A stretch of 64,000 bases of DNA from Prevotella sp. (GTDB lineage: Bacteria > Bacteroidota > Bacteroidia > Bacteroidales > Bacteroidaceae). The notes beneath the pieces were generated by a model, which was not told the DNA's origin, searched no databases, and saw nothing but the letters and a program-made list of their open reading frames with translations. Positions 8,389 to 63,433 of the stretch are shown here, piece by piece. The translations under genes and the position numbers were made by a program. The stretch lies in contig JAFYYV010000028.1 of NCBI GenBank assembly GCA_017557405.1, positions 186,001-250,000 on the forward strand, given 5' to 3'. Every line of letters begins with the position of its first letter. Positions within the stretch are counted from its first letter, which is position 1.

Positions 8389-8835
8389 ATGGCAATTCTT
8401 TACAGAGTTTATCAAGACAACCGCGAAAACGCACTGACCTCAGGCCAGTGGTTCGCACGTGCCGTCCACACGCAGGCCATCAACCTGCAGCAGATGGCAA
8501 TGGAGATCGAGGAGAACGTCTCCGTGAAGTACTCCGACGTAAGCGCCGTGCTCATCGAGCTGGTCAATGTCATGAACCGCCACCTCAACGCTTCCGAGCG
8601 CGTCGTGCTCGATGGCTTCGGCTCGTTCAAAATCGGTCTGAAGACCAAAGGTTCGCTTCGCAAGGAGGACTTCTCCGCGTCGAAGAACATCGTCGGCTCG
8701 CGCATGAATTTCCAGCCAGAATGGAAGGTCACGAAGGAAGGCAACCGCATCAAGAAGTTCCTCAGCAACGTGACCGTCAAGAACATTGCCGACCTCCTGC
8801 CCGAAGAGGAGGAGGAAGGTGAACAGCAGCCGTAA
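8389..8835 (+). CDS. HU/IHF-like DNA-binding protein
   Basis: 148 residues. The pattern fits the HU-type proteins common in Bacteroidetes accessory modules: an N-terminal helical part (QAINLQQMAMEIEEN), the conserved turn LDGFGSFKIGL at about 75-85, then a beta-arm region (SASKNIVGSRMNFQPEWKV) that would grip DNA. The acidic tail EEEEEGEQQ is typical of the group. Its role is DNA bending or nucleoid binding. Own promoter; followed by a GC-rich palindrome and a 22-bp array instead of a classical terminator. Confidence 0.85.
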   Translation: MAILYRVYQDNRENALTSGQWFARAVHTQAINLQQMAMEIEENVSVKYSDVSAVLIELVNVMNRHLNASERVVLDGFGSFKIGLKTKGSLRKEDFSASKNIVGSRMNFQPEWKVTKEGNRIKKFLSNVTVKNIADLLPEEEEEGEQQP

Positions 8836-8836
8836 A

Positions 8837-8889
8837 AGCCTCACCCCCGACCCCTCCCCAAAAAGGGAGGGGAGATTGGAGGGGGCTCC
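8837..8889. repeat. GC-rich palindromic element (copy 3)
   Basis: Starts 2 bp after the HU-like stop with GCCTCACCCCCGACCCCT and continues into CCTCCCC...GGGAGGGGAG and TTGGAGGGGGCTCC. Nearly identical in its first half to the copy at 10933, which also starts just after a stop codon; it may act as a transcript end or stabiliser. Confidence 0.75.
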
Positions 8890-8972
8890 TACATGCCACA
8901 CCTGAGCGCCTCAGGTAATACATCTGAGGCGCTTACTTTTATCATCTGAGATTGCTACATGATAGCTATAGC
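8888..8972. repeat. 22-bp-period dyad array 1 (four units)
   Basis: Units at 8888, 8910, 8932 and 8954: 19-bp degenerate dyads such as CTCAGGTAATACATCTGAG separated by 3-bp linkers (CGC, GCG, ATT). It sits exactly between two GC-rich palindromic elements. Confidence 0.8.
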
Positions 8973-23522: not shown

Positions 23523-24428
23523 TTATTTCTTCTTGGCTCGTTCCAAATCGACCGCGCGGGGTGGGGCAGCATGTGGGAAAGTCAGCTTCGGCAGAGCCTC
23601 GACGGTCTTGTCGTCCGTTTGGCAATACTTCTTGATCAAGTCGGCATATTCTTTCAACCCATAGTGGTTGATGGAATCGCAAGCTCTGTTGTAGGCTTTC
23701 ACAAAGACATCGAGCTGTTGCTGGCGACGTTTGTCTTTCAAAGCGTTCTCGCGAAACGCGATGACACCCAACCGAATGTCTTTTGTCTTCGTATCCATCA
23801 TCACGGGATGCTTGGCCAATCGAGCCGTTGTTGCTTGCGGTTCGGGCAACCACATCGCGTCCATCTCGTTGTTGATGAGCATGCGAAGTCTCAAGGGTAT
23901 GTCGTTGATCTGAATGCGGAACACGGCGGCGCTTGTCTTCACGCCATCGAGTGCCAAGTCGGTCAGGTAGTCGGTGGCCGAAAAGCGAGTCATAGCCACC
24001 ATCTTGTCGCCCAACTGCTTGGGTTCTTTCACGCGAGCCGTGCGGTTGCTGATGAATTGCCAATGAGTGTTCGTAGCCGCCACATAGCGTAGGGGAGTTC
24101 CTTTCGTTTGCAGGCGTTCGCCTCTGATGAGGTCGGTGATGCTGCCTTCCACGCTTCCACCAGCCAGCGCGGTGTCGCAATCCATCTGGGCATTGTATAG
24201 GCGCAAACGGACGTCGGTCTTCAAGGCCTCGAAGAATTTGTGGTCTTTGGCCAGATAAATGGGAAGACAATCGAGCGTGGGCAGCACCGCCACCTTGAAA
24301 GCCAGAGAATCCTCTTTTCTCAATTGTGCTTGTTGGGCGCGCGTCAACCTTTTCGTTTCTTCGTATGAAGGTCCGCAAGCGGCAACCACGAAGGTCAATA
24401 CCAGCAGATATTGGAATGCTTTTTTCAT
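23523..24428 (-). CDS. Substrate-binding lipoprotein, NMT1/SsuA-like
   Basis: 301 residues. Lipobox FVVAAC (Cys about 18). Residues 44-60 (FKVAVLPTLDCLPIYLA) and the following KDHKFFEAL match the start of the NMT1/THI5/SsuA binding-protein fold, with AGGSVEGSITDLI at the ligand pocket. Such proteins deliver small ligands to ABC importers, but no permease or ATPase gene is nearby, so the partner is elsewhere or the protein has another role. It is followed by the large TPR gene. Confidence 0.82.
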   Translation of the reverse strand: MKKAFQYLLVLTFVVAACGPSYEETKRLTRAQQAQLRKEDSLAFKVAVLPTLDCLPIYLAKDHKFFEALKTDVRLRLYNAQMDCDTALAGGSVEGSITDLIRGERLQTKGTPLRYVAATNTHWQFISNRTARVKEPKQLGDKMVAMTRFSATDYLTDLALDGVKTSAAVFRIQINDIPLRLRMLINNEMDAMWLPEPQATTARLAKHPVMMDTKTKDIRLGVIAFRENALKDKRRQQQLDVFVKAYNRACDSINHYGLKEYADLIKKYCQTDDKTVEALPKLTFPHAAPPRAVDLERAKKK

Positions 24429-24678
24429 AAATGCAAAGATACAAATAATCGGTGGAACAAACGAACAATTTGGGAAGATTAACGATTAGATGATTTGGGG
24501 TGTCTTTCTGGTGATGAAACATTATGATTCGTTTGTCAAGAAAATTCTGAATTTTGCCCCCTCAAAACGGCCATCGTTTCATAATAAAAGCCAATCGCTC
24601 GCAAATACGCGAGTTTTGAGCGTTTTCGGAACGTGTTGATAACCAATAAGTTCCGTTTCCTTTACAAACAATGAACCG

Positions 24679-24807
24679 GTCAAAGCTATGCAATGACCTT
24701 GTCAAAGCTATGGAATGAGGTTGTCAGAGCTATGCTTTGATGGTGTCAGATGCCACATGTAAGCGGGTCAAAGCATAACTATGAGCGGCTCAGATGATAC
24801 ATGTGAC
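24679..24807. repeat. 22-bp-period dyad array 2 (six units)
   Basis: Units begin at 24679, 24701, 24723, 24745, 24767 and 24789, each 19 bp (for example GTCAAAGCTATGCAATGAC) plus a 3-bp linker (CTT, GTT, GGT, CGG, CGG). Ends follow the dyad STYA...TRAS. It lies in a 510-bp gene-free gap between two minus-strand genes; the rest of the gap holds only short GC-rich inverted repeats such as CGGAAC...GTTCCG (about 24628-24656). Confidence 0.9.
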
Positions 24808-24938
24808 AATTTCGGATGTAAAAAATGGGGAGATTGGAGCGGAAAAACGGTTTTCTCACACGATTTTCTTCTCTAGATTGAACGGAAAAGTCGACAATTT
24901 TTTGTAAAAGAAAATGTACAAATGAATGGCTTTTCCCT

Positions 24939-25643
24939 TCATTTTTTCTTGCCCAAACGACGGTAATACTCAGTAAGCGTGGCGCGATTGACGCCCAGTT
25001 TTACCAGTTCGTTGAGGTCAGAGCGGGCTTCATCGAAACGGCGCATTTGAATCCTCGTTTCCACGCGAGCCAGCAGATAATCGGTGTTTTTCGGGTCGCG
25101 TTTGATGGCTTCGCCGTAGTCGTATTCGGCAGGCTCCCACATCTGGCGCTCCATCTCCATACCAGCTCGGGCGGCATAGACAATCGCGCTATCGGGGAAC
25201 TGGCTGACCATATTGTTGATTTGGTTGTAGGCCTCTGTGTAGTGCTTGTCTTTCTGGTTGAGAAGGGCCAATCCCAATTGCGCCTCAAAGTGGCCAGGAA
25301 CCGCAGCCAACAGGTTCTCATAGTCGAGTCGGGCGAATCCATAGCGATAAAGTTTTTCGTTAACAAATGCTCGGAAATACCTTGCAGCTAGATTGTTGGG
25401 GTTCCTGTCGAGAATGTAGTCGTATTCCTCTTTCGCTTTGTCCCATTCCTCCAACATCAAGTTCCAGCCCGCCTTCTTCAAACGCAAGTCGGTGTTGTCG
25501 GGATGATACTCCATCGCATCGATGGCCAAGCGGAGCGAGTCGCGCAAGGCTTTTGTGTCTTGAGCGGAAACAGGTTGTGCGGCCAACATGCAAATGATGG
25601 CGAAGAGACACGATGCGAACTTCGAGCGGATACAGTTTTTCAT
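24939..25643 (-). CDS. Exported TPR protein
   Basis: 234 residues from the ATG at 25643; the preceding open frame has no signal and overlaps the upstream gene. Signal peptide CLFAIICMLAAQPVSAQ, then about five TPR-like units (MEYHPDNTDLRLKKAGWNLM; LLAAVPGHFEAQLGLALLNQ; AIKRDPKNTDYLLARVETRI). Probably a periplasmic binding or scaffold protein. Function unknown. Ten bp separate it from the 67-residue gene upstream. Confidence 0.85.
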   Translation of the reverse strand: MKNCIRSKFASCLFAIICMLAAQPVSAQDTKALRDSLRLAIDAMEYHPDNTDLRLKKAGWNLMLEEWDKAKEEYDYILDRNPNNLAARYFRAFVNEKLYRYGFARLDYENLLAAVPGHFEAQLGLALLNQKDKHYTEAYNQINNMVSQFPDSAIVYAARAGMEMERQMWEPAEYDYGEAIKRDPKNTDYLLARVETRIQMRRFDEARSDLNELVKLGVNRATLTEYYRRLGKKK

Positions 25644-39129: not shown

Positions 39130-39236
39130 GCTAAAGACCACAAATGACCGTGTCAAAGCTATGCAATGAGGCGGTCAAAGCTATGGAATGACTCGGTCAA
39201 AAGCCACAAATGAGACGGTCAAAGATGGCCTTTGAC
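39130..39236. repeat. 22-bp-period dyad array 3 (five units)
   Basis: Units at 39130, 39152, 39174, 39196 and 39218; unit 2 is GTCAAAGCTATGCAATGAG, and the last, GTCAAAGATGGCCTTTGAC, is a good palindrome. Linkers CGT, GCG, TCG, ACG. Within an 815-bp gene-free, divergent region. Confidence 0.9.
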
Positions 39237-53981: not shown

Positions 53982-54088
53982 CTCATAGCTATGCTTTAAG
54001 CGTGTCAAAGATATGCTTTGACCGCCTCATAGTTATGCTTTGACAGCCTCAAAGCATAGCTTACACTTTGTCACATTGATGCTTTACG
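53982..54088. repeat. 22-bp-period dyad array 4 (five units)
   Basis: Units at 53982, 54004, 54026, 54048 and 54070; unit 2 is GTCAAAGATATGCTTTGAC, nearly a perfect palindrome. Linkers CGT, CGC, AGC, TTT. In the 352-bp gap between the GH2 promoter and the end of hisB, which holds nothing else coding. Confidence 0.9.
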
Positions 54089-62546: not shown

Positions 62547-62621
62547 CGAATAACCGAGTGAAATGCCAAACAAAATCGCTTATATTTTTGCCTCGTAGAG
62601 AGCTAAGTAATCACGACCGAG

Positions 62622-62768
62622 TCTTACACTTACAGTCTTACAATTAAAAAACATGTAATACAACCCCCTTCTAAAGATTATATAACTAATTGATATATAT
62701 ATAGTTATATAGTATATCAGGGGGAATGGATACCCTTAAAAAACAACTGTAAGACTGTAAGTGTAAGA
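62622..62768. repeat. Large AT-rich nested inverted repeat, IR-B
   Basis: Perfect 21-bp outer arms at 62622-62642 and 62748-62768 (TCTTACACTTACAGTCTTAC plus A, and its complement); inner CCCCC/GGGGG and TATATAACTA/TAGTTATATA pairs; span 147 bp. Confidence 0.9.
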
Positions 62769-63134: not shown

Positions 63135-63336
63135 CTTGCATCTTGCATCTTGCATTCATTTTTTTACATGTTCAGTGGAAGAGAAGAGAAAATAGTAGTA
63201 ATTATAGTAATAATTTATAATATAACTTATTGATATATAATACTTTATATAATATATATACTATATATTTCACTCTATTTTATCTCTCTCTAAAATCGCA
63301 CTCCTTAAAAACCGTTTGCAAGATGCAAGATGCAAG
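63135..63336. repeat. Large AT-rich nested inverted repeat, IR-C
   Basis: Perfect 20-bp outer arms CTTGCATCTTGCATCTTGCA (63135) and its complement (63317), themselves 7-bp tandem repeats; about 160 bp of mostly AT sequence between, sharing the TATAACTTATTGATATATA core with IR-B. Confidence 0.9.
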
Positions 63337-63348
63337 ATTCCGCCCATT

Positions 63349-63433
63349 GCTACATGCCACATCTAAGCGTCTTAGGTGATATGTCTGAGGTGCTTACTTG
63401 TATCACCTAAGGGCCTTACATGCCACATGTGAC
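63349..63433. repeat. 22-bp-period dyad array 5 (four units)
   Basis: Units at 63349, 63371, 63393 and 63415, for example CTTAGGTGATATGTCTGAG and CTTACTTGTATCACCTAAG; linkers CGT, GTG, GGC. It starts 12 bp after IR-C. Confidence 0.85.

Follow-up and report, generated by a model that had tools for sequence, protein, structure and literature searches.

What are the tandem 19-bp units, each followed by a 3-bp linker, that lie between genes of Prevotella sp., and what, if anything, keeps them there? The genome concerned, GCA_017557405.1 (G000 below), is assembled in 54 contigs totalling 3,557,533 bases, and the window is the whole stretch of 64,000 nt that was analysed on one of them, contig C16. 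A preliminary description had placed 24 units at five intergenic places in it, and all are found there both by direct reading and by an array finder whose only input is the ends STYA..TRAS and the 22-bp period (Table 1). At scores of 15 or more the finder returns exactly these five arrays and none besides, and the enrichment over shuffled DNA that had been proposed as a check is evident, with scores of 32-76, whereas dinucleotide-shuffling the window 20 times gave at most 19.8. One degenerate unit, at 24657, is added by the finder ahead of the six-unit array; the last unit of the array at 8888 is decayed, and the left flank of the array at 53982 (46 bp) is common to an array at C16:284255.

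Table 1. Positions of the arrays, and of the gene and repeated element associated with two of them, in the 64,000-nt window
Feature	Position	Strand	Finder score	Basis
Array, 4 units, type II (CTTAGGTGATAC-like), 52 bp past the HU-HIG gene	8888..8972	none	32.2	finder
Array, 6 units of 19 bp + 3 bp, period 22	24679..24807	none	75.8	finder; aligns with L136, a G652 array in the same position
Array, 5 units, without long-element flanks	39130..39236	none	58.8	finder
Array, 5 units, final two decayed	53982..54088	none	48.1	finder
Array, 4 units, type II	63349..63433	none	39.8	finder
HU-HIG DNA-binding protein gene	8389..8835	+		PF18291, E 9.7e-23
Non-coding repeated element: leader 24532-24678, the six-unit array, tail 24808 to about 24909 (right end not sharp)	24532..24909	+		leader matches and alignment

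Arrays of this kind are numerous in the genome. The two-unit pattern STCA-N11-TGAS-N3-STCA-N11-TGAS occurs at 254 places in G000 and its backwards control at none, while GTCAAAGCTATGCWWTGA, searched at a tolerance of two mismatches, gives 194 + 139 matches and its backwards control one. At a score of at least 22 the finder yields 20 arrays with 103 units on C16 (three shuffles gave 1, 0 and 0). There are 41 arrays with 209 units in the 761 kb of C16, C44 and C43 together, all three scored as fetched stretches and C43 to base 157,000 of 175,477; extrapolation from these contigs gives about 190 arrays and about 980 units for G000. Thirteen of the 41 arrays have four units, 17 have five, six have six, four have seven and one has eight. 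One of them, C43:10457 (in L311), has four units with period 22 and partly other ends (approximately STTACCA..TGGTAAT), and is perhaps a second lattice type. Five contig ends in G000 are less than 400 bp from array units (C1:207, C3:156, C5:354, C20:129 and C52:309), and arrays may break assemblies.

The geometry is exact. When tandem STCA/TGAS units were sought with 45 length combinations (core 9-13, linker 0-8), the combination of an 11-bp core with a 3-bp linker was found at 65 places in the 761 kb of G000 and at 41 in 381 kb of a second species, G652, and the other 44 combinations at no place in either. Among G000 units, which were chosen by their ends, the information at TCA/TGA is 1.42-2.0 bits and that in the core 0.05-1.02 bits; cores within one array are not homogeneous, and in other species the core varies less, reaching up to 2.0 bits in G675 (27 units). 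That length and ends are kept while the interiors of units differ, as the preliminary description had it, is thus borne out, but its term palindrome is too strong for G000, where regular symmetry is confined to TCA..TGA. Across 148 G000 units, complementarity is rarer than expected at positions 5/15 (0.24 against 0.35) and 6/14 (0.37 against 0.52), commoner at 7/13 (0.66 against 0.47) and 8/12 (0.71 against 0.35), and at 9/11 is 0.01 with 0.36 expected; in G652 the inner pairs 5/15 and 6/14 are likewise complementary no more than by chance. Symmetry extends to 5/15 (0.96) and 6/14 (0.93) in G675, which for arms as nearly invariant as those of this species is just what is expected. In all five species groups the outermost pair, 1/19, is under-complementary (observed/expected 0.43/0.50 in G000, 0.36/0.44 in G652, 0.13/0.48 in G028, 0.26/0.37 in G675 and 0.21/0.45 in S104, which is SRR873600_bin.104), so the units have polarity, most clearly in G028 with GTCA-N11-TGAG. 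The commonest linkers are ACG, GCG, AAA and AAG in G000 and GTG and CAC in G028. Of the selection on symmetry and spacing that had been proposed, the part concerning spacing and ends is now better supported, by the shared-site comparison below, and the part concerning the whole dyad is not supported as stated, given the inner pairs of G000 and G652 and the outermost pair in all five groups; selection seems to act on TCA-N11-TGA and on spacing, and less on inner symmetry.

A search of the genome and its relatives, also proposed at the outset, finds further arrays in both, and the strict 22-bp period and intergenic location hold throughout the genome and in other species. Among 393 genomes of the order, G000 alone has more than one place, with two singletons otherwise, which is the chance level. 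Among 398 sampled genomes of the genus, G000 included, the 19+3 pattern is present in 29 and reaches at least three places in 16: 294 in G652, the 254 of G000, 62 in G675, 55 in G533, 31 in G028, 26 in G755, 15 in G617, 11 each in G430 and G635, ten in G469, nine in G477, six in G549, four each in G436, G513 and G692, and three in G707. The backwards control is positive in nine of the 398, with a maximum of six places (G014), and equals or exceeds the pattern in G014, G032, G488, G649, G651, G657 and G716, none of which is among the 16. A scan of genome contigs gave, among the matches listed, mostly Prevotella or Prevotellaceae, nearly all metagenome-assembled and several from rumen; the outsiders among them (Shewanella, Paraburkholderia, Rhizobium, a deltaproteobacterium and others) resemble simple tandem repeats, as do both of the two matches in viral contigs, and in plasmids the array at 53982 had no match.

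What changes from species to species is the vocabulary. The same geometry carries other words in G028 (GTCAGGAGATACTCCTGAG) and G675 (GTCATTCCACTGAAATGAC), the half-site words being AAGCT, TTGCA and AAGAC in G000, TTTGT, AAAGC and AAGAC in G652, GGAAG, CTTGT, GGAGA and GGTAT in G028, TTTAA, TTTCA and TTCCA in G675, and GAGAC, GAGAT and GAAGA in S104; the 14 commonest words account for 0.62 to 1.00 of half-sites, depending on species. The distribution is also patchy, with negative species interleaved with positive ones in a one-gene tree (a carboxyltransferase; 31 rows, of which ten count as array-positive under the strict pattern; 30 loci available from 36 matches). The array-positive rows there require seven changes, at least four of them forced by supported branches, where shuffled labels give a mean of 8.6 and a value as low as seven in 74 of 500 cases; the row for G755 may stem from contamination (6%).

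Maintenance was addressed by a comparison with G652, which covers this one species pair. Three G652 contigs, C4, C6 and C19, were chosen since each held an array locus syntenic with a C16 array, and were then scored whole, giving 30 arrays in 381 kb. Six syntenic blocks contain 11 C16 arrays; for ten of these the mapped place in G652 also holds an array, within 130 bp in nine cases and at 333 bp for C16:266299, and C16:310474 has no counterpart. In the reverse direction a C16 array corresponds to ten of the 14 G652 arrays. Setting aside the three pairs behind the choice of contigs (C16 166065, 274625 and 324095) leaves 7/8 and 7/11. The two species have a coding identity of 0.823, an identity at 4-fold sites of 0.575 and a Jukes-Cantor distance of 0.63 (from 106 translated matches no shorter than 150 residues and at least 70% identical), from which arithmetic gives a neutral survival of six fixed letters of about 0.575^6 = 0.04 per unit. 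Conformity at TYA/TRA positions is 95.5% over the ten pairs, and 90 of 115 units conform fully; this agreement is partly built in by the finder, as the retention rate is not. Since the finder itself uses the ends, and since end identity in orthologous arrays (0.78) is barely above that in unrelated ones (0.755), the argument rests on retention. Core identity averages 0.49 (0.16 to 0.82) against 0.40 in 180 non-orthologous comparisons; pair by pair, 365699 is clearly above this null, 84354 and 166065 are at about 0.05, and the other seven are not clearly above it.

Flanking DNA aligns at 84354, 166065, 315059, 324095 and 365699, and likewise between the six-unit array of the window and L136. 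In some cases at least, then, a single array is present in both species and its words have drifted. At C16:80137, 110381, 274625 and 284255 the 50-200 bp of flank are unalignable, and little aligns at 266299, so that replacement, or a second insertion at preferred places, is possible there. Arrays of the pairs viewed differ in length by complete units and stay in phase. G028 is more distant and offers one testable place, for which neither G000 nor G652 has an array in the matching intergenic region. A separate observation concerns one orthologous element, L173:5773 compared with L225:1338, in which unit 4 is oriented alike on both sides and units 3 and 5 look swapped as reverse complements.

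Our working interpretation, to which we give a probability of about 0.45, is that the arrays are an old dispersed Prevotella repeat family that would now be kept as a multi-site platform for a putative DNA-binding protein. Its observed part is that there are many copies, that the long-element copies described below have common flanks, and that the arrays are mostly at the same places in one species pair, a placement that suggests protein binding as a possible function. After dispersal, arrays would have been retained in place with TCA/TGA and spacing conserved while cores drift or are exchanged, as is observed in the one pair. A single protein, probably an oligomer, would contact the TCA/TGA half-sites, which on the 22-bp period would recur every two helical turns on about the same face, and it might bind several units cooperatively; in each species the protein and a small set of half-site words would then have drifted jointly. 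Iteron arrays of plasmid origins, whose sites are about two helical turns apart and are bound cooperatively by one protein, offer a precedent, and the Prevotella arrays share with them a fixed site spacing, only core 11 with linker 3 occurring, but differ in being chromosome-wide intergenic arrays and not parts of one origin, and in that no recurrent adjacent gene was found. The neighbourhood yields no candidate for the binding protein or another partner: in 340 ORFs within 1.2 kb of arrays, from up to 16 species groups, no cluster of related genes reaches more than three groups. Counted against such a platform are this lack of a candidate, the flanks that do not align at several shared sites, the array-less counterpart of the G028 place, the patchy distribution, which is unlike that of an essential chromosome system, and the negative RNA folding z-scores given below, which a pure protein-site model does not need.

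One local association does occur. Three close HU-HIG-like paralogs on C16 (the window gene at 8389-8835, C16:144795-145244 and C16:296930-297379), 76-100% identical to the query copy and with the HU-HIG domain confirmed by Pfam for the window gene only, are each followed by a type II array (CTTAGGTGATAC-like), which accounts for three of the five C16 arrays of that type. The window gene is also followed by a short reading frame that we take to resemble the small 'smalltalk' proteins. No array lies within 700 bp of either of two distant HU homologs in G028 (35% identical).

A somewhat less probable account is that the arrays belong to a non-autonomous mobile repeat of MITE type, comparable to BrickBuilt, in which the units serve as internal repeats of an element, or as sites bound by the transposase that spread it, and most copies are relics by now; shared places would be old insertions, and recombination in register would keep the geometry and homogenize words within each species. 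This account draws on a fact that the preliminary description had missed, namely that the six-unit array is embedded in a repeated element of about 380 bp. Counting itself and two partial ones, its leader has at least 34 matches in G000 (40 of 51 candidates scored), at least 38 in G652 (40 of 58 candidates scored), seven in G755 and three in G635, with a single short patch each in G675, G533, G617 and G477 and no match in the other eight of 15 genomes. Thirty copies were aligned from TTTGTCAAGAAAATTC to past GTCGACAAAAATTTGTC, and all 30 contain an array. Measured from the start, TAGATT lies 342 nt away in 20 of the 30, 340-343 nt away in 24 and 320, or one unit less, in two; of the remaining four copies one is without the TAGATT anchor, two were measured to another TAGATT and one is diverged. 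Given this constancy the array here is a fixed-length component and not a free tandem repeat. TTTGT is present near both ends of the element in direct orientation, and in eight of the 30 copies (L225, L228, L233, L235, L238, L239, L243 and L245) a further non-coding repeat of about 550 bp lies upstream.

A mobile origin would also suit the patchy distribution and the borders of arrays. In G652 a border TT|GTCA...TGAC|AA is seen on the two sides in 15/29 and 14/29 cases against 7/104 and 9/104 internally; the resulting TTGTCA/TGACAA, a possible counterpart of MITE terminal inverted repeats, is present in about half of the arrays there, more weakly in G000 (7/19 and 6/19 against 8/64 and 8/64 internally) and not in the pooled other species (left TT 5/20 against 19/80 internally). 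Other expected traces of transposition are missing, in that no target-site duplication is clear in 28 copies (k = 3-9), and of five array-less sites compared in the other species four hold 31-157 bp of unrelated DNA, with no clean empty site, and the fifth aligned on one side only. Nor is it easy to see mostly neutral relics in arrays of which ten of 11 are shared across 0.63 substitutions per 4-fold site, and homogenizing recombination should affect cores as it does ends, yet cores are diverse.

BrickBuilt of Porphyromonas gingivalis, as characterized in PMC4596501, has a 23-nt unit without spacer, of consensus AGAYCATARTATCCTCTCRTRTG; an element contains 1 to 22.8 repeats, and its terminal repeats are IS5-like. 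The Prevotella arrays resemble it in being Bacteroidales intergenic sequences with tandem units of 22-23 nt between a leader and a tail, in tens of copies and, for window positions 24400-25000, with no Rfam match, though of the approximately 190 arrays just the long-element copies, with their at least 34 leader matches, have this leader-array-tail layout. They differ from what is described there in their 19+3 bp units with TCA-N11-TGA, which a comparison by eye does not find in the BrickBuilt consensus (PMC4596501), in having mostly 4-6 units, in their extrapolated number and in their species-specific words. BrickBuilt is the nearest described element found in the literature searched and REP/BIME the nearest class. 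REPs are described in PMC3733652 as palindromes of 20-40 bp with a GTAG or CGTC tag at one end, and the arrays share with REP/BIME sequences, on that account, short intergenic dyad-like units, high copy number, families differing between species, and clustering (PMC3733652). The paired stem of 5-13 bp of REP/RAYT systems, as given there, is not seen in the G000 units, with their values at 5/15 and 6/14, only G675-like words fitting it, and the GTAG/CGTC tag has no equivalent in the variable linkers. The Y1 (RAYT) transposase family PF01797 has no match in G652, with its 294 places and 99% completeness, or in G755; it is present in eight of 14 array-positive genomes, G000 having one weak match (E 4.9e-5), and in 40 of 60 genomes of a set of relatives nearly all without arrays. 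A REP/RAYT system was rejected, array-rich G652 and G755 being without the Y1 transposase, most units not being full palindromes and a tag being absent.

More ambitious, and in our estimate improbable, is the idea of a chromosome-wide DNA-marking system, in which the lattices of the whole genome, about 190 of them, would be read by a dedicated oligomeric protein recognizing geometry together with TCA/TGA and co-evolving with a species-specific half-site vocabulary. Such a system may organize the nucleoid or insulate neighbouring regions, a role suggested because the arrays are indifferent to gene direction and because no two are closer than 4.2 kb in the three G000 contigs, G652 having nearer pairs. 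With arrays less than 500 bp apart merged beforehand (for example one pair on G652 C4), the smallest gap is unusually large on C16 (P 0.0067), G652 C4 (0.0020) and C44 (0.0097), and not clearly so on C43 (0.076), G652 C19 (0.12) and G652 C6 (0.58, gap 1.8 kb). Even spacing along the chromosome was considered as well, with P of 0.022 for C16, 0.008 for G652 C4, 0.14 for G652 C6 and 0.083 for G652 C19, and was rejected when C44 (0.21) and C43 (0.58) did not reproduce it.

Action as RNA or single-stranded DNA, with transcribed units folding into stem-loops alone or one with another and acting on transcript ends or stability, is unlikely. Mean RNA folding z-scores run from -2.3 to -11 by species, being on the plus strand -3.4 in G000 (20 arrays), -2.4 in G652 (30), -2.3 in G028 (11), -4.3 in G675 (six), -5.0 in S104 (seven) and -11.2 in G469 and G430 together (four), and similar on the minus strand, and the unit arms of G675 are complementary, as those of G000 at 5/15 and 6/14 are not, being below chance. 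RNAalifold pairs unit 3 of the long element with unit 5, and four such pairs are changed on both sides in 7-8 of the 30 copies, but the same pairs are broken or gapped in 7-8 of the 30 too, and the copies are related. This co-switching was dropped as proof of RNA pairing, given the relatedness of the copies and given that L173/L225 swaps units without complementarity. The consensus fold of the entire element is weak (-5.2 kcal/mol, 21 pairs), and Rfam has no match near the gathering score in window positions 24400-25000. Around 69 arrays of G000 and G652 with both neighbours, gene orientation is codirectional in 37, convergent in 17 and divergent in 15, so that gene 3' ends are not preferred, and the baseline for intergenic regions of C16 is 62, 31 and 24; placement with respect to transcription is therefore like that of other intergenic regions, which favours a role as DNA over one as RNA. 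Array polarity with respect to codirectional genes is opposite in ten and the same in five. A terminator or promoter role was rejected, the arrays having no bias to gene ends. An unconstrained minisatellite, made by slippage and chance with selection absent, would account for the whole-unit gains and losses between species but is very improbable, being largely refuted by the shared-site comparison, with its shared placement and its ends conserved over cores, as well as by heterogeneous cores and a narrow size range (4-8 units in the 41 arrays, 30 of them with four or five).

Whichever account is preferred, this is a real and strikingly regular repeat class, with a conserved lattice, species-specific words and a placement mostly conserved in the pair tested. 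Prevotella is abundant in gut and rumen. If the arrays are kept as a protein-binding platform, they are an intergenic repeat class that inherits geometry and not sequence, the 22-bp lattice staying while words turn over, and, if true, a natural experiment in the co-evolution of a DNA-binding protein with its many sites. Even as a repeat element they would be a large family, no published description of which was found in the literature searched, most subscription papers and all bioRxiv preprints being outside it.

Another kind of repeat is met in the same surroundings. The repeat of about 550 bp upstream of some long-element copies holds, in the copies read, a hairpin with tandem-repeat arms whose words vary by copy and are complementary within a copy. 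Similar hairpins are present in the window, where positions 63135-63155 pair with 63317-63338 and 62620-62646 with 62746-62761, their arms being tandem words of 6-8 nt, mutually complementary, about an AT-rich centre. Along C16, five of 27 nearby pairs of tandem repeats with the same period are reverse complements, against an expectation of 0.49 and a maximum of three in 200 word shuffles.
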